Shown here: piece by piece, positions 18,543 through 53,940 of the stretch | Numbering within the stretch: the first letter of the stretch is position 1 | Layout: the number at the start of each line of letters is the position of its first letter | DNA from: Flavobacteriales bacterium | GTDB taxonomy: Bacteria > Bacteroidota > Bacteroidia > Flavobacteriales_E > Vicingaceae | Assembly: GCA_015075325.1 (NCBI GenBank) | Contig: JABTUP010000001.1 | Location: forward strand, 62,001 to 126,000 | Direction of reading: 5' to 3' | Length of the DNA: 64,000 bases | Program-made: the position numbers and the translations under genes | The notes under the pieces: model-generated | Seen by the model: the letters and a program-made list of their open reading frames with translations, nothing else | Told to the model about the DNA's origin: nothing | Databases searched by the model: none

Positions 18543-18625
18543 TTTTTTATTGTTTAAGGTTTAATGTTCAAGGTTTAAACATCATCCCAGTTAGTTTATA
18601 TATTTAATTTATCTTTTTACCTAAT

Positions 18626-18660
18626 ATCTTCGGTCTTCCGACTTCAAACTTCCAACTTTT
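18626..18660. repeat. GACCGAAG repeat (inverse copy) at the GNAT 3' end
   Basis: On the minus strand it reads AAAAGTTGGAAGTTTGAAG followed by TCGGAAGACCGAAGAT. It resembles 14268-14298. The GNAT stop codon (TGA, 18646-18644) lies inside this element. Confidence 0.7.
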
Positions 18661-19164: not shown

Positions 19165-19226
19165 CCCACCTCAATCCTCACTCAAGAGAGGACTTTAGCC
19201 CCTCCTTCGGAGGGGTTGGGGAGGCT
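19165..19226. repeat. C/G-rich interspersed repeat, copy 1
   Basis: A 62-bp element starting CCCACCTCAATCCTC and ending GGTTGGGGAGGCT, between fadA and the GNAT gene. It contains a perfect stem CCCCTCC-TTC-GGAGGGG (19199-19215). Nearly the same element occurs at 20489-20547. Its base composition is far from the AT-rich surroundings. Confidence 0.85.
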
Positions 19227-19227
19227 T

Positions 19228-20403
19228 TTACAACATTTCATAAATACCAGCAGCACCTTGCCCAGTCCCAACACACATAGTTACCATTCCGTATTTTTGT
19301 TTTCTTCTTTTTAGCTCATTAAAAATTTGAACAGAAAGTTTAGCCCCAGTACAAGCCAATGGATGACCTAAAGCAATTGCACCACCATTTACATTTACTT
19401 TATTGGTATCTAATCCTAAGCCTTTTATAACTGCCAACGATTGAGATGCAAATGCTTCGTTCAATTCAAATAAATCAATATTGTCTTGTTTTAAACCTGC
19501 ATGTTTTAAAACTGCTGGAATTGCTGTTAATGGACCAACACCCATAATTCTTGGCTCTAAACCAACTACTTGATACGAAACTAAACGAGCTATTGGTTTA
19601 ATGTTTAACTCTTTTACCATTCGCTCCGACATTACCATCACAAAAGCTGCTCCATCTGAAGTTTGTGACGAATTTCCAGCTGTAACACTACCTCCAGCTG
19701 CAAAAACAGGCTTTAAACTTGACAAAGCTTCAACTGTTGTTCCTCTTCTCGGTCCTTCATCAGTATCAACTATATATTTTTTTGAATGTCTTTTGTTATC
19801 TTCCCCAACAAAAATTTCTTCTACTTCTACAGGAACAATATCATCTTTAAACAAACCATTATCTATAGCATTTAAAGCTCTTCTGTGCGATTCGTATGCA
19901 AATGCATCTTGCTCCTCTCGAGATATTTTAAAATCGTTAGCCACCGCTTCTGCTGTTAAGCCCATTCCCCAATAATAATCAGGATTTTCTTTGGCAACTT
20001 TAGCATTTGGAACTATTCTCCAACCACCAAAAGGAATCGGACTCATCGTCTCAACGCCACCTGCAATAATACAATCTGCCATACCAGCATTAATTTGTGC
20101 TGAAGCAATGGCAATGGTTTGTATACCCGACGAACAATAACGATTTACCGTCATACCTGGTACTTTAACCGAATCCAAGCCCATCATCGATATCATTCTA
20201 CCAATGTTTAGTCCTTGCTCTGCCTCTGGAGTTGCATTACCAACTATTACATCGTTAATTCGTTCTTTGTCTAATTGAGGAAAATCCTCCATTAATCTTT
20301 TAATTACAGCTGCACTTAAATCGTCTGGTCGTGTAAACCTAAACAATCCTCGAGGTGCTTTACCTACTGCTGTTCTGTAACCTGCTACTATATATGCGTC
20401 CAT
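19228..20403 (-). CDS. fadA: Acetyl-CoA C-acyltransferase (thiolase)
   Basis: Last enzyme of beta-oxidation (391 aa), cleaving 3-ketoacyl-CoA with CoA. The acyl-accepting cysteine is in VNRYCSSG (C90), with the catalytic His in GGAIALGHPLACTGA and the second Cys in MCVGTGQG near the C-terminus. The frame extends to 20436 through a C/G-rich repeat using a non-ATG start; ATG 20403, giving MDAYIVAGYR, is the natural start. Upstream is fadN and downstream GNAT and fadE. The intergenic gaps are occupied by interspersed repeats rather than by promoters I can recognise, so one transcript is plausible. Confidence 0.94.
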   Translation of the reverse strand: MDAYIVAGYRTAVGKAPRGLFRFTRPDDLSAAVIKRLMEDFPQLDKERINDVIVGNATPEAEQGLNIGRMISMMGLDSVKVPGMTVNRYCSSGIQTIAIASAQINAGMADCIIAGGVETMSPIPFGGWRIVPNAKVAKENPDYYWGMGLTAEAVANDFKISREEQDAFAYESHRRALNAIDNGLFKDDIVPVEVEEIFVGEDNKRHSKKYIVDTDEGPRRGTTVEALSSLKPVFAAGGSVTAGNSSQTSDGAAFVMVMSERMVKELNIKPIARLVSYQVVGLEPRIMGVGPLTAIPAVLKHAGLKQDNIDLFELNEAFASQSLAVIKGLGLDTNKVNVNGGAIALGHPLACTGAKLSVQIFNELKRRKQKYGMVTMCVGTGQGAAGIYEML

Positions 20404-20488: not shown

Positions 20489-20547
20489 CCCACCTCAATC
20501 CTCCCTCAAGGGAGGACTGCCCCTCCTTCGGAGGGGTTGGGGAGGCT
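20489..20547. repeat. C/G-rich interspersed repeat, copy 2
   Basis: A 59-bp element highly similar to 19165-19226. It has CTCCCTCAAGGGAGG and then the perfect CCCCTCC-TTC-GGAGGGG stem (20520-20536). It separates fadN from fadA and ends 2 bp before the fadN stop. Confidence 0.85.
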
Positions 20548-20548
20548 C

Positions 20549-22927
20549 TTAATTTCTTAAAACTTTCCCCGTTGTAATAATACTTTGTAATCTTTCTAAT
20601 GTTTTGCGTTCGGTACATAGTTCTAAGAATGCTCTTCGTTCCATGTCCAACAAGTATTGTTCGTTAACTTCGGTTGGTGCCGATAAATCTCCTCCACACA
20701 ATACCCAGCCCAATTTTTCAGAAATTACTTGGTCGTGTTCCGACATGTAATTACCCGATTTCATAGAGTGTGCTCCAACATACACAATACCCAAACCTTC
20801 GTTACCCAACACTTTAATGTCTTTTCGTTGAATTGGTTTGGTATACCCTTTATCTGCCAAGTTTAAAGCAGCTTGTTTGGCATAACTCAATTGGTGAGCA
20901 CGGCTAACAATTACTTCATCAATACCTGGTCTTAAATATCCCAACTCAAATGCTTCGTGTGCCGAAGTAGAAACTTTTGCTTGACCAACTGTTAAAAAGC
21001 GGTTTCTCAATACATTTAATCGCATTCCATCACCGTATTCATCCGATGCTCTTAAAGCAAATTCTTTAGAACCTCCACCACCAGGAATAACGCCAACACC
21101 AAACTCAACCAATCCCATATAAGTTTCGGCATGAGCAACAACCTTATCAGCATGCATACTCATTTCGCAACCACCACCTAAAGCAAGATTGTGTGGTGCA
21201 ACAATAACTGGAATTGATGAATATCGAACTCTCATCATGGTTTTTTGAAAAGCCTGAATAGCGAAATCTAACTCGTCGTATTCTTGCTCTACTGCCATCA
21301 TAAATATCATACCTACATTGGCTCCTGCCGAAAAGTTATCACCATCGTTGGAAATAACTAACCCTTTGTATTGTTGCTCTGCTAAATCAATTGCTTTGTT
21401 AATACCTTCAATCACTTCACCACCAATGGTATTCATTTTGGTATGGAATTCTAAATTAATAATTCCGTCTCCTAAATCAACTATGGTTGTTCCTGAGTTT
21501 TTCCAAATGGTATTTTCTGCTCTTAATGTTTCTAGCGACAATACTTTGTCAGAACCCGGAATCATTTGATAAGATTTCGAAGTTATATCATAAAAATATT
21601 TCGCTCCTTTTTCTACTTTATAAAATGATTTGATGCCGGCTGCCAACATTTCTTTTACCCATGGATTTGGTGTAATGCCCATTTTTTCCATGTAAGGCAA
21701 ACTTTCTTCCACGCCAATAGCATCCCAAGTAGCAAACGGACCCAACTGCCAGCCAAAACCAGCACTCAAGGCATCGTCAATTTTATATACTGCATCGGTA
21801 ATTTCTGGTATTCTATTCGACACATAAGCAAACAATCCAAAAAACGATTTACGGTAAAACTCACCCGCTTTATCTTGTCCTTTAACTAAGGCTTTGGTTC
21901 GTTGTTTTAAATCATCAATCGATTTTGCCATTTCTAATGTAGCAAACTTCACTTTTTCTCCCGCACGATATTCCATGGTGTTTAGGTCTAACGTCAGAAT
22001 TTCGCTTTTGCCGTTTTCGCCTGTTACCTTTTTAAAGAACCCTTGTTTGGTTTTTGAGCCCAACCATTTGTTCTCCACCATTTTGTTGATGTAAGTTGGA
22101 ATGGTAAATACCGCATTGGCTTCGTCGTTCGGACAGTTGTCTTTAACTCCATTGGCAACGTGTACCAAAGTATCTAAACCAACCACATCGCACGTTCTAA
22201 AGGTTGCCGATTTTGGTCGACCAATAACTGGACCAGTTAATTTATCAACTTCCTCAACAGTTAAACCCATTTCGGTAACGGTATGAAACAACGACATGAT
22301 GCTGTAAACACCAATTCTGTTAGCAATAAATGCTGGTGTATCTTTACAAACCACGGTGGTTTTTCCTAAAAAACGCTGACCGTAATCTTCCAAGAAGGTC
22401 ATTACAGCTGGATCCGTTTTAGGAGTAGGAATTAACTCCAACAATTTTAAATAACGAGGTGGGTTAAAAAAGTGAGTTCCGCAAAAATGTTTTTGGAAAT
22501 CTTCACTTCTGCCTTCCAACATCATGTGGATTGGAATTCCCGACGTATTTGACGTTATTAGTGTGCCTGGTTTACGGTATTTTTCAACATTTTCGAACAC
22601 TTGCTTTTTAATGTCTAATCGCTCAATTACTACCTCAATAACCCAATCGCAGTTAGCAATTTTAGCTAAATCATCGTCGAAATTTCCTGTAGAAATTCTA
22701 CTGATAAACGATTTGCTGTAAATGGGCGAAGGGTTTGATTTCAACGCAAACTGCAAAGCATCGTTTACAATTTTGTTACGCTCTGCAGGTTTGGTAGATT
22801 CGGTTGCTTCTTTTGGAACAATGTCTAACAACAATACCTCAACACCAATGTTGGCAAAATGGCACGCAATTCTAGAACCCATTACTCCCGAGCCTAAGAC
22901 TGCTACTTTGTTTATTTTTCTATTCAT
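20549..22927 (-). CDS. fadN: 3-hydroxyacyl-CoA dehydrogenase / enoyl-CoA hydratase fusion
   Basis: Bifunctional beta-oxidation enzyme (792 aa) performing hydration and NAD-dependent oxidation of acyl-CoA intermediates. The N-terminal Rossmann dehydrogenase domain has GSGVMGSRIA (12-21), the CGTHFFNPPRYLKLLE segment with the catalytic-type His, and a dehydrogenase C-terminal domain to about 430. The crotonase domain occupies about 480-680, with SNDGDNFSAGANVG and APHNLALGGGCEM (oxyanion loop). This dehydrogenase-first order and length match Bacillus FadN rather than E. coli FadB. It precedes fadA and fadE and follows a MarR-type regulator on the same strand. Confidence 0.93.
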   Translation of the reverse strand: MNRKINKVAVLGSGVMGSRIACHFANIGVEVLLLDIVPKEATESTKPAERNKIVNDALQFALKSNPSPIYSKSFISRISTGNFDDDLAKIANCDWVIEVVIERLDIKKQVFENVEKYRKPGTLITSNTSGIPIHMMLEGRSEDFQKHFCGTHFFNPPRYLKLLELIPTPKTDPAVMTFLEDYGQRFLGKTTVVCKDTPAFIANRIGVYSIMSLFHTVTEMGLTVEEVDKLTGPVIGRPKSATFRTCDVVGLDTLVHVANGVKDNCPNDEANAVFTIPTYINKMVENKWLGSKTKQGFFKKVTGENGKSEILTLDLNTMEYRAGEKVKFATLEMAKSIDDLKQRTKALVKGQDKAGEFYRKSFFGLFAYVSNRIPEITDAVYKIDDALSAGFGWQLGPFATWDAIGVEESLPYMEKMGITPNPWVKEMLAAGIKSFYKVEKGAKYFYDITSKSYQMIPGSDKVLSLETLRAENTIWKNSGTTIVDLGDGIINLEFHTKMNTIGGEVIEGINKAIDLAEQQYKGLVISNDGDNFSAGANVGMIFMMAVEQEYDELDFAIQAFQKTMMRVRYSSIPVIVAPHNLALGGGCEMSMHADKVVAHAETYMGLVEFGVGVIPGGGGSKEFALRASDEYGDGMRLNVLRNRFLTVGQAKVSTSAHEAFELGYLRPGIDEVIVSRAHQLSYAKQAALNLADKGYTKPIQRKDIKVLGNEGLGIVYVGAHSMKSGNYMSEHDQVISEKLGWVLCGGDLSAPTEVNEQYLLDMERRAFLELCTERKTLERLQSIITTGKVLRN

Positions 22928-42364: not shown

Positions 42365-42397
42365 TTAGTGATTAGTGAATAATAATTAGTGATTAGT
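42365..42397. repeat. TTAGTGATTAGT direct repeat at the mtaB 3' end
   Basis: Two copies (42365-42376 and 42386-42397). The mtaB stop codon (42395-42393) and its last SNN residues fall in the second copy. Similar TAATCACTAA sequence occurs near 14310-14330 and at about 54034-54052. Confidence 0.7.
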
Positions 42398-43712
42398 TAT
42401 TCGATGTTAAAGATAATGATAAAATTCCTTCAACAATTCCTTCGGCATCGACATGAGATAATTTCACTTCTTGAATGGTGTTCTCCAATTCTTTCTGATA
42501 AGGAATTTTTATTTTTATATAATTGGCTGTAAAACCGTGTAAAAAACCTTCGTGGTTTTCGCTTTCAAACAACACTGAATATGTTTTTCCGATGTGCTCG
42601 GCATAAAATTGTCGGCGTTTTTTTTCTGATAAAATGTGTAGCATCTTGCTTCGTTTACTTCGTTCTTCTTTAGGAACAACTTCTGTCATTTTATTTGCAG
42701 TAGTATTTTGCCGCTCCGAATAAGTAAACACATGTAAATAAGAAACTGGTAATTCGTTCAAAAACTGGTAGGTTTCTAAAAAATCTTCTTCGGTTTCGTT
42801 CGGGAAACCAACAATTACATCAACACCAATGCAAGCATGAGGCATCAATCGTTTAATTTCGTTTACTCGCTCTACATACAACTCTCGTTTGTATTTTCTT
42901 CGCATTAACTCCAAAATTTTATTTGAACCCGATTGAAGCGGAATATGAAAATGTGGCATAAATCGCTCCGATTGACTAACAAATTTGATGATATCGCTAC
43001 TCAATAAATTGGGTTCAATAGATGATATTCTAAATCGTTCAATGCCCTCTATTTTATCCAGCTCTTTTATTAAATCAAAAAAAGTTTCTCCTTCTCCTTG
43101 ACCAAAATCGCCAATGTTTACACCTGTCAAAACCACCTCATGCACATCAGTTTTTGCTACTTCTTTCGCTACTTTTACTGTTTCTGCTATGCTGTCGTTT
43201 CTGCTCTTACCACGTGCCAACGGAATGGTGCAAAACGTACAAAAATAGTCGCAGCCATCTTGTATTTTTAAAAACGAACGTGTTCTATCACCTTTCGAAT
43301 ACGAAGGAACAAATTCATTTACTTCCTTAATTTTTGAAGCGTAAATTGCTGCTTTCTCTTTTTTTTCAATATCAGAAAAATGTTCTAAAATTTTAAATTT
43401 TTCAGATGCTCCCAACACCATATCAACACCATAAATTTTAGCTATTTCTTCGGGTTTAAGTTGTGCATAACAACCAATAATGGCTATAAAAGCATTCGGA
43501 TTAACTTTTAAAGCTTTATTTACCAATTGCTTACATTTTTTATCCGCATTTTCGGTAACCGAGCAGGTGTTAATCACATAAACATCAGGATTTTCATCAA
43601 ACTCCACTCTGGCAAAGCCTTCTTCTTCAAACATTCGAGCAATTGACGATGTTTCAGAAAAATTGAGTTTGCAACCCAAAGTGTAAAGCGATACTTTTTT
43701 GTTTGGCATCAT
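42393..43712 (-). CDS. mtaB: tRNA t6A37 methylthiotransferase MtaB
   Basis: Radical-SAM enzyme (439 aa) converting N6-threonylcarbamoyladenosine-37 to its 2-methylthio form in tRNAs reading ANN codons. The N-terminal UPF0004 domain has three cysteines for an Fe-S cluster (C14, C50, C81). The radical-SAM motif CDYFCTFC (C154, C158, C161) follows, and a C-terminal TRAM-like domain (about 370-430). The N-terminal SLYTLGCKLNFSE is typical of MtaB rather than MiaB or RimO. Start is ATG 43712 or 43709. The last residues and the stop codon fall in an interspersed repeat. Confidence 0.94.
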   Translation of the reverse strand: MMPNKKVSLYTLGCKLNFSETSSIARMFEEEGFARVEFDENPDVYVINTCSVTENADKKCKQLVNKALKVNPNAFIAIIGCYAQLKPEEIAKIYGVDMVLGASEKFKILEHFSDIEKKEKAAIYASKIKEVNEFVPSYSKGDRTRSFLKIQDGCDYFCTFCTIPLARGKSRNDSIAETVKVAKEVAKTDVHEVVLTGVNIGDFGQGEGETFFDLIKELDKIEGIERFRISSIEPNLLSSDIIKFVSQSERFMPHFHIPLQSGSNKILELMRRKYKRELYVERVNEIKRLMPHACIGVDVIVGFPNETEEDFLETYQFLNELPVSYLHVFTYSERQNTTANKMTEVVPKEERSKRSKMLHILSEKKRRQFYAEHIGKTYSVLFESENHEGFLHGFTANYIKIKIPYQKELENTIQEVKLSHVDAEGIVEGILSLSLTSNN

Positions 43713-43719
43713 GAGGCTG

Positions 43720-43749
43720 CAAAGTTAATTATCAATTGTCAATTGGCAA
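43720..43749 (-). promoter_or_regulatory. Candidate promoter of mtaB
   Basis: On the minus strand TTG (43749-43747), 19 bp, TAACTTTG (43727-43720), an exact match to the group consensus. The transcript would start within a few bases of the mtaB ATG. The upstream half is made of the ATTATCAATTG repeat. Confidence 0.55.
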
Positions 43750-43760
43750 TTATCAATTTA
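43727..43760. repeat. ATTATCAATTG simple repeat
   Basis: ATTATCAATTGTCAATTGGC followed by AATTATCAATTTA; multiple CAATT units on both strands in the divergent gap. It is related to the short copy before cysN at 10011. Confidence 0.65.
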
Positions 43761-51897: not shown

Positions 51898-53940
51898 ATG
51901 AAATATTTTATATTATATATTACATTATTTTGTACATTCCATTCTTCTGCTCAATTGGTTTTTTATCAAGATGTATTTTATGGGGGAGTTACTGGTGGTG
52001 GTTTCTCCTCTGGAGCTGGTTCTGGAACAGTAATTAGCAATCTCTTCATTCCATTTGGTAGCTCAATAAAAAAAGCATACTTAATTGCTGCTAGAGATGG
52101 CTCGACACACCCTTTTACAGTTAGTTTAAATGGAAATAATTATTCATTTAATGAAACCACAATGATAACCTATGGATTTTTAAGCACAATAGAGGGCTCT
52201 ATTATTTGGGATTTTTCCAGTATTCACGCTATCGATATAACAAAAGATATCGATTCTTCTATTATTAGTTATTCACTTTTAATTCCGCCTCAGATAAATG
52301 GTTACAAAGGGACATACTCTCATTTTTATTTATACATTGTTTATAAAAATATACTCCTTCCCAAAGTATCTTGTGGTGTATTTATAAATACACAAAATGT
52401 TTCTCCCACTACTACATATAATCTCAGTAATTTAATTCCAATTAACAACAACAAACCTATTGGTTTATCATTACTAACTTCCCATTTCTGCGACACTATA
52501 CAAGATGGTTCGTATGTAGCTGTTAATGGTAATACATTAGGTTTATTGGGGGGCAGTGATGCCAATTCATCTTCATGGTTTTGCACGGGTACATACTCTA
52601 ATTTTGCTCATTATAATGATAGTTTATTTGGTTTAGACGATGATACACCCGATAGTTTAATGGCTGGAACGGATGCTTTGGCAGATATAAAAAGCTATGT
52701 AAACAATGGTGATACATCTGTTGATATTACTTTTACCTATCAATCTAACTTTTCTCCTTTAAGTAATCCTATCCGAGCAGTAATGCTATCGTATTCCACC
52801 CTCTGCGATACCTTTACCACCACTGCTACCGCTAACCAAGATACCGTTTGTGCAGGAGAACCTGTACAACTCAACGCAACAGGAGGAGCAAGTTACAGTT
52901 GGTACAGCCCGTTTAGTACCTTTAACGATAGTACTTTGGCAAACCCTGTGGCAACACCCACCCAAACCACTACCTATATTGTAACTATAAAAAACGATAG
53001 CGGTTGTGTGAAAACCGAGCATGTAAAAGTGTGGGTAAACCCAACTCCAAAACCGGATACCATAACTACAAGCCCACAGAGGTGCGGTAGTGCAAATGGT
53101 AGCATTGTTGTTGGCAACATACCAAAAGGCACACCTCCTTTTACTTATTCGCTTACCAATTTACAAACGCTAGCAACCAGTAACCAGCAACTTGCAACTT
53201 TTAATAGCTTGTTAGCAGGAGATTATCTAATCAACATCACCGATTCAAATGGTTGTGTTTGGCAGAGCGATACGCTTGTTGTAGCAGAAATACACGATAT
53301 TACAGCAAATTTTAACCTTTATACCTTGCCTTTGGTTTTTCCTACTCCTAACCCTTTGGGTACTGCTCCGCTTACGGTTTATACGCAAAATGGGAGTGTT
53401 AATGCTAATAGTTTTCAGTGGTCAGTTATCAGTAGTCAGGAGTCAGGGATTAGTGATACCATTATTCAACATTCAACATTTAACATTTCTCACTCTTTTG
53501 AAGATGGTGGAACTTTTGAGGTTTGTTTGTTTGCGTACAACAATATTGTTACTTGTGGCGATACGTTGTGTAAAACCATCGTTGTAGCTCCTGCTCCTGA
53601 TAGTTTGGTATTAATAGTGCCTAATGTTTTTAGTCCAAATGGTGATGGTAGCAACGATAATTTTGTATTGCAAGTTCAAAGTGCTCATTTGTTAGAAAGT
53701 TTAGGAGTGGAGATTTTTAATCGGTGGGGGCAGGAAGTTTCGAGTTCCGAGTTTGATGTTCAAAGTTTGGCAAGTGCGATGGTTAGCTCTCCTTCGGGGT
53801 TGGGGGCTTTCGTTATATGGGACGGTACAACCACCACAGGAAAAGAAGTTCCTGACGGCACTTATTTTTATGTAATCCATTACACCAAATTAACGGGTGA
53901 AGTTGAAAACTTGAAGGGAAGTGTGAGTTTGTTGAGGTAG
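51898..53940 (+). CDS. Gliding-type surface protein with T9SS type B sorting domain
   Basis: A 680-aa extracellular protein. Signal peptide 1-19, a DUF11-like or beta-sandwich N-terminal half (about 20-300), an Ig-like domain (about 310-385; DTVCAGEPVQLNATGGASYSWY), a SprB-like repeat (about 385-460; CGSANGSIVVGNI) and a PKD-like domain (about 470-560). The C-terminal gliding-motility sorting domain has PNVFSPNGDGSNDNF and IFNRWGQEV ... DGTYFYVIHY. The C-terminal domains are interrupted by short peptides (TLATSNQQLATFN, SVISSQESGIS, VSSSEFDVQSLAS, SSPSGLGAF) that translate simple or C/G-rich interspersed repeats. It is likely exported, but the interrupted sorting domain may be weakened. Confidence 0.86.
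   Translation: MKYFILYITLFCTFHSSAQLVFYQDVFYGGVTGGGFSSGAGSGTVISNLFIPFGSSIKKAYLIAARDGSTHPFTVSLNGNNYSFNETTMITYGFLSTIEGSIIWDFSSIHAIDITKDIDSSIISYSLLIPPQINGYKGTYSHFYLYIVYKNILLPKVSCGVFINTQNVSPTTTYNLSNLIPINNNKPIGLSLLTSHFCDTIQDGSYVAVNGNTLGLLGGSDANSSSWFCTGTYSNFAHYNDSLFGLDDDTPDSLMAGTDALADIKSYVNNGDTSVDITFTYQSNFSPLSNPIRAVMLSYSTLCDTFTTTATANQDTVCAGEPVQLNATGGASYSWYSPFSTFNDSTLANPVATPTQTTTYIVTIKNDSGCVKTEHVKVWVNPTPKPDTITTSPQRCGSANGSIVVGNIPKGTPPFTYSLTNLQTLATSNQQLATFNSLLAGDYLINITDSNGCVWQSDTLVVAEIHDITANFNLYTLPLVFPTPNPLGTAPLTVYTQNGSVNANSFQWSVISSQESGISDTIIQHSTFNISHSFEDGGTFEVCLFAYNNIVTCGDTLCKTIVVAPAPDSLVLIVPNVFSPNGDGSNDNFVLQVQSAHLLESLGVEIFNRWGQEVSSSEFDVQSLASAMVSSPSGLGAFVIWDGTTTTGKEVPDGTYFYVIHYTKLTGEVENLKGSVSLLR
53414..53487. 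repeat. CAGTGGTCAGT and CATTCAACATT repeats inside the type B gene
   Basis: TTCAGTGGTCAGTTATCAGT then AGTCAGGAGTCAGGG (53414-53448), followed by ATTCAACATTCAACATTTAA. These are tandem simple units translated within the PKD-like domain (SVISSQESGIS, IQHSTFNIS). Confidence 0.65.
53743..53810. repeat. GTTTCGAGTTC and C/G-rich repeat remnants inside the sorting domain
   Basis: AGTTTCGAGTTCCGAGTTTG is followed at 53785-53810 by AGCTCTCCTTCGGGGTTGGG and GGCTTT. The latter closely resembles the 3' half of the elements at 19165 and 20489. They split IFNRWGQEV from WDGTTTTGKEVPDG, which normally lie close together. Confidence 0.65.

Follow-up and report, generated by a model that had tools for sequence, protein, structure and literature searches.

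The gene at 51898–53940 of this stretch carries several runs of repeat-like DNA that are translated in frame, and this raises the question of whether such repeats enter coding DNA as insertions, whether they favour it, and how the reading frame survives them. An earlier note had proposed at least four insertions in this gene, and repeats that tolerate or even favour coding DNA while keeping the frame. The window, that is, the whole 64,000-nucleotide stretch analysed, comes from a 3.3-Mb draft genome of the family Vicingaceae; compared genomes are labelled G001, G025, G035 and so on, and "own" denotes the window's genome. The frame is open over its full length and gives Ig_7, SprB and CHU_C matches, the last at residues 573–675 (Table 1). 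The own genome encodes two paralogues of its product, at 76% and 65% identity, and other genera have orthologues. The structure prediction, built with 7 sequences, reaches a modest mean pLDDT of 68.5, and its low-confidence segments 513–527 and 630–635 overlap sites B and C.

Table 1. Repeat-like stretches and domains of the T9SS type B protein gene (positions in the window).
Feature	Position	Strand	Remarks
T9SS type B (CHU_C) protein gene	51898..53940	+	680 aa; Ig_7, SprB-like, PKD-like and CHU_C domains
Site A, degenerate heptamer array CAGTAAC/CAGCAAC	53172..53200	+	encodes LATSNQQLATF
Site B1, TCAGTNN heptamer array	53415..53447	+	period-7 scan, Tandem Repeats Finder
Site B2, ATTCAAC heptamers	53464..53488	+	encode QHSTFN
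CHU_C sorting domain with enlarged RWG–WDG loop	53614..53922	+	29 aa vs usual 12
Site C left half, degenerate GAGTTTN heptamer-like stretch	53736..53770	+	encodes SSSEFDVQSL
Site C right half, degenerate CTCCCCTTCGGGGAGGTTGGGAGGGGC-type REP-like element	53785..53811	+	encodes SSPSGLGAF; inside CHU_C domain

Two methods recovered the arrays of sites A, B1 and B2 where the earlier note had seen repeats, and the heptamer plus REP-like block at 53735–53811 (site C) does split the sorting domain, between IFNRWGQ and WDG. As insertions the proposed four fared unevenly: site C is the sole clear lengthening of the protein, site A has a constant length, site B1 is better described as a replacement, and the QHSTFN of site B2 is shared with the paralogues and another genus.

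At site A, detected by both Tandem Repeats Finder and the period-7 scan, the homologue alignment shows an identical protein length in nearly all homologues, and an insertion is ruled out because of this constancy. The predicted structure models the segment as a confident beta-hairpin, and the site is a loop whose sequence is heptameric. Site B1 consists of unequal units (TCAGTGG, TCAGTTA, TCAGTAG and TCAGGAG) and forms a clean array in the window's copy only; the paralogues' version is itself heptamer-like. Between the window's copy and its paralogue, identity falls to 42% over 15 codons, with 89% and 91% in the flanks, and the length of site B is nearly unchanged. Because these codons diverge at almost constant length between well-matched flanks, site B1 is, to judge from the alignment, a block replacement of a different, older heptamer-like stretch kept in the paralogues. 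It overlaps the low-confidence loop at 513–527, and in G025 and G035 a CGTC-type REP, GAGATTGCTTCGTACCTCGCAATGACGG, occupies its place. The QHSTFN of site B2, common to the paralogues and to G025 (another genus), is older.

Site C enlarges a loop that measures 12 aa in 32 of 58 CHU_C loops. Its right half is a degenerate member of the GC-rich palindromic family CTCCCCTTCGGGGAGGTTGGGAGGGGC, with a decayed stem and no excess hairpin stability over shuffled sequences at 53785–53811. The same loop holds different repeats in different homologues. CGTC-type REPs stand at the right-half place in G025, G028, G034 and the C370 copy of G035: G025 combines GGAAGTT heptamers with GAGATTCCTG..CAGGAATGACGG, G028 and G034 carry GAGATTGCTTCGT.CCTCGCAATGACGG (degenerate in G034), and the G035_C370 copy is a mosaic in which the left half, and that half only, is of the own type and the right half of the G025 type. 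G003, of the same genus, retains a decayed form of the left half and has no palindrome at this site, and two other CHU_C proteins hold heptamer arrays in the equivalent loop.

Third codon positions separate the history of this block from that of its gene. Between the own paralogue on C12 and the G035 copy on C27, 23 of 25 third positions match in the block, compared with 44/85 elsewhere in the domain; the same G035 copy agrees with its congeneric G025 counterparts at 11/23 positions inside the block and 52–54/85 outside it. Two G025 paralogues are identical in the block (23/23) and match at 65/85 third positions beyond it. On these counts the DNA of the site C block has a history of its own, independent of the gene around it. 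The earlier note had reasoned that the same peptides at the same places in distant genera would mark ordinary protein sequence; a shared peptide was indeed found in another genus for site C and for QHSTFN, and at site C the DNA shows this separate history. An 86-bp query spanning the block matched this protein family only, at 5 places in 61 genomes. Because the search finds just this family, the block is not a free element, and a mobile composite element spread through genomes is ruled out; the block appears instead to be exchanged among copies of its gene.

The likeness of site C between the own genome and G035 could also reflect plain homologous recombination, by gene conversion or transfer, with the repeats as mere passengers. 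The confinement of the composite block to one protein family is in keeping with this, as is the similar homogenisation of site C among the paralogues of G025 and of the own genome. Against it, the shared tract is about 76 bases long, ends near the repeat edges and is flanked by sequence of 59–77% identity, and the G035 paralogue pair is mosaic at the junction of the two repeat types. We regard this explanation as a serious contender that nonetheless falls short of being probable.

Changes of repeat at a fixed loop are also found in other proteins, which we take from their sequences alone to be AroA, MetG, SpoIIE-type phosphatases and RecG. Among 30 AroA orthologues, two loops were compared, loop 1 preceding KTYNDHRMAM and loop 2 preceding NCPDLAQ. 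CGTC-REP dimers occupy loop 1 in G034, G060, G015, G067 and G031, and G061 has another CGTC-REP there; the own genome and G002 show decayed traces, and genus g4 has no repeat. Loop 2 contains TTCGGAC heptamers in the own genome and G034, TTCCGAC in G001, and ATTCAGN heptamers in G015 and more weakly in G060; G067 has CATCCTGAGCTTGTCGAAGG there, and G031 and G068 retain decayed forms of it. The MetG linker before the C-terminal domain holds the 53785-type family in 2 of 30 orthologues, those of the own genome and of G061 (another genus); in G064, CCTGCCTGCCGGACAGGCAGG lies at another place of the protein.

In the SpoIIE-type phosphatases, loop alpha, ahead of AADCTGHG, measures 11 aa in 22 of 41 distinct loops, and all six loops of at least 22 aa contain repeats, comprising heptamers, inverted heptamer arrays, a TCCTCCCTTGAGGGAGGA element and a CGTC-REP dimer. 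Loop beta harbours CGTC-REPs (own), the 53785-type element (G032 and G035) or CATCCTGAGC nested in a CGTC dimer (G034). Inserts are roughly 30–110 bp in size, with one loop of 200 bp. The alignments indicate that in-frame turnover of unrelated repeats takes place in the two AroA loops, the two SpoIIE-phosphatase loops and the MetG linker as well, and the in-frame tolerance suspected from the window thus extends well beyond its gene, to AroA, MetG, SpoIIE-type phosphatases, RecG and others.

Several further genes carry related elements. The SpoIIE-like gene at L361 (G034) has a 67-aa loop made of the CATCCTGAGC element nested in a CGTC-REP dimer together with a tandem repeat of one end. RecG-like helicases at L353 (own C2) and L354 (G001) each contain two in-frame 53785-type palindromes at matching places, and a spermidine-synthase-like membrane protein (L093:5570-7135, own C1) has an in-frame CGTC-REP dimer, VIAGLTRNLNKQMAGQARND. 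At L116 (own C23), palindromes separate the body from the T9SS type A tail (IYPNP) in secreted proteins of 333 and 1105 aa; at L100 (own C12) they stand at the very start of MurG- and MurD-like frames and may precede the true starts.

A census of the own genome spoke against the idea that coding DNA is favoured. Period-7 arrays numbered 37 in 798 kb, compared with 0–4 for periods 5, 8, 10 and 11; 12 lay in ORFs and 25 were intergenic, although 89% of the sample is coding, an intergenic density about 17-fold above the coding one. A lower threshold gave 15 coding arrays, 6 of them from the paralogue family of 51898–53940; the remaining coding arrays were mostly at protein ends or in signal peptides. 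The strict form of CTCCCCTTCGGGGAGGTTGGGAGGGGC had 9 copies in a 1.2-Mb sample, 8 of them in ORFs, several being paralogous copies or doubtful, and the reversed pattern had no match in that sample. Looser members of the family showed mixed placement and were often intergenic. Overall, the 53785-type family was present in 15 of 46 genomes of the bacterial family, and 20 of 35 copies in the fetched loci fell in ORFs of at least 130 aa, 12 of these internally. Within the window itself, intergenic heptamer arrays occur at 18543–18658, 42365–42401 and 43727–43758, some with units drifting in sequence along the array, and two near-identical intergenic 53785-type palindromes at 19198–19230 and 20519–20551; a weak array lies inside an ORF of 425 aa, perhaps the M16 case of the earlier note.

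Dinucleotide shuffles gave p < 0.005 for sites A and B and for the window's own site C block, and p = 0.06, not significant, for the block of the C12 paralogue alone. Scored by period or folding energy, most listed inserts were flagged, as were 25 of 300 random coding windows and not one control loop. Shuffles alone gave no significance for several of the CGTC and CATCCTGAGC inserts or for the CHU_C blocks of C12, G028 and G034, and the assignment of decayed copies rests partly on judgement. The showcase proteins were picked for carrying repeats. An unbiased screen of 97 orthologue pairs with G002 yielded 24 internal insertions of at least 4 aa, not one of them repeat-like; in-frame repeats are therefore uncommon per gene, and the effect is striking per loop and rare per genome.

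The frame itself needs no special guardian. The GC-rich palindrome consensus, as read from its sequence, is free of stops in all its frames. In the aroA gene of G001, a congener (L390, reverse strand), the frame breaks directly upstream of the TTCCGAC array and about 20 usual residues are missing, the gene being a pseudogene or the break an assembly error. Because this gene is frameshifted beside its array, the repeats offer the frame no protection. Selection is the best explanation of why the frame holds, with out-of-frame copies in needed genes being lost; the earlier note was right that the repeats are in frame, and selection is enough to account for this.

The presence, frame and positions of the repeats, the differing families at homologous loops and the discordant histories of blocks are direct observations, and turnover of repeats in tolerant loops, with short blocks that spread independently, is probably their best explanation. 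Vicingaceae genomes would harbour, mostly between genes, scattered degenerate heptamer arrays and REP-like palindromes that belong to several unrelated families. Genic copies would persist where a protein tolerates extra or altered residues, as in loops, linkers and termini, provided that they bring no stop and leave the frame intact. Tolerant loops would then be reused, one repeat giving way over time to another, whether from its own family or not, and homologues would come to hold unrelated repeats at the same loop. Short blocks would pass from one paralogue to another, and apparently across genera, independently of the gene around them, with local gene conversion or template switching as the putative copying step. 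Neutrality, and replacement instead of insertion plus deletion, are what we infer; no donor copy or target-site duplication was identified. A stronger version, in which certain loops are exchange sites and some process that copies repeat DNA as such swaps cassettes there, with palindromes and heptamer arrays of unrelated kinds supplanting one another in frame across species faster than the surrounding gene evolves, seems unlikely to us.

A simpler account, which we consider improbable, would have ordinary periodic-looking protein sequence, or heptamer arrays grown by replication slippage, without transfer of repeat DNA. Site A, constant in length and peptide among the own-genome paralogues, suits this account, which stands there, and since the heptamer classes are common, two loops could gain the same class independently. 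However, palindromic families known elsewhere in the genomes sit in the same loops, and the composite site C block recurs almost letter for letter across genera, third positions included; the account is largely refuted at site C and in the loops of AroA and SpoIIE. Still less credible is selection for variety in the loops of a surface-exposed secreted protein, which would draw on repeats to diversify. Secretion is predicted for the protein, and the three paralogues in its genome differ in loop B, but the same turnover occurs in AroA and MetG, household enzymes expected in the cytoplasm, and in SpoIIE-type phosphatases. An artefact of draft metagenome assembly is hardly conceivable, since in-frame, decayed and fresh versions occupy the same loops in independent genomes, even if most of these are drafts with many contigs.

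Repeat turnover in tolerant loops resembles several known systems in part. CGTC-tagged REPs, including RPE-4 and RPE-6 of Rickettsia conorii, are characterised in the portions of Di Nocera 2013 (PMC3733652) consulted here, which describe intragenic copies, HH dimers and Bacteroidetes members, give no dedicated transposase as known, propose loops and linkers as tolerant places, and record one coincidence, in Xanthomonas recB, of distinct REPs at roughly one position. Like these, the GAGATTGC..GCAATGACG, GAGATTCCTG..CAGGAATGACG and GATTGCGGGTCAAGCCCGCAATGACG inserts have CGTC/GACG at their start or end and short stems, and they can form HH dimers. Inserts in homologues and in own SpoIIE genes show a terminal unpaired CGTC, an 8–9 bp stem and AT in the first two pairs; the tag is read directly in CGTCATTGCGA.. 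and CGTCATTCCTG.. (as GACG, the other strand's end), stem lengths vary and some copies are decayed. Dimers occur in AroA loop 1 of G034, G015 and G067, and single copies in other places. The window's element at 53785–53811, CTCTCCTTCGGGGTTGGGGGC, is without CGTC. Unlike the CGTC REPs in those portions of the source, several unrelated families and heptamer arrays alternate here at the same loop across species.

Heptamer repeats of the TAACTGA type have Bacteroidetes members and rare intragenic copies (MacGregor 2015, PMC4679880). Site B1 (TCAGTTA) is the reverse orientation of that heptamer, but its units vary, so it is no exact direct TAACTGA/TCAGTTA repeat, and the present arrays are degenerate, of many heptamer classes and in some cases inside folded domains. 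As with RAYT-mobilised GTAG REPs, the own genome has Y1_Tnp genes (three strong matches); no GTAG tag was read in the elements examined, and RAYT as mover of the CGTC copies is unsupported by co-occurrence, a genome with 22 CGTC copies having no Y1_Tnp match.

Precedents for intragenic REPs and RPEs come from Rickettsia, Opitutus and Xanthomonas recB. Our literature searches on Bacteroidota gave no report of such in-frame repeat turnover beyond the papers cited, and we found no description of loops in several proteins at which several unrelated families, among them heptamers, turn over repeatedly, with gene-discordant block histories. The observations join two things known separately, intragenic REPs and heptamer arrays, through turnover at homologous loops of household enzymes. 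They show, from naturally occurring cases, at which loops AroA, MetG, SpoIIE phosphatases and T9SS sorting domains admit foreign peptides, and the question of how transposase-less REPs move could be approached by comparing what close relatives carry in a given loop. Also close are the Rickettsia palindromic elements, which, in the summary given by a review (PMC10969869, citing Ogata 2000, 2002), are about 150 bp long and inserted in frame in many unrelated genes. The MetG and AroA alignments likewise show in-frame genic insertions absent from homologues, although the inserts here, mostly 30–110 bp, are smaller than the RPEs so summarised and are mixed with tandem heptamers. The finding is a Bacteroidota counterpart, drawing on several repeat families, of the palindromes that Rickettsia carries in protein-coding DNA.
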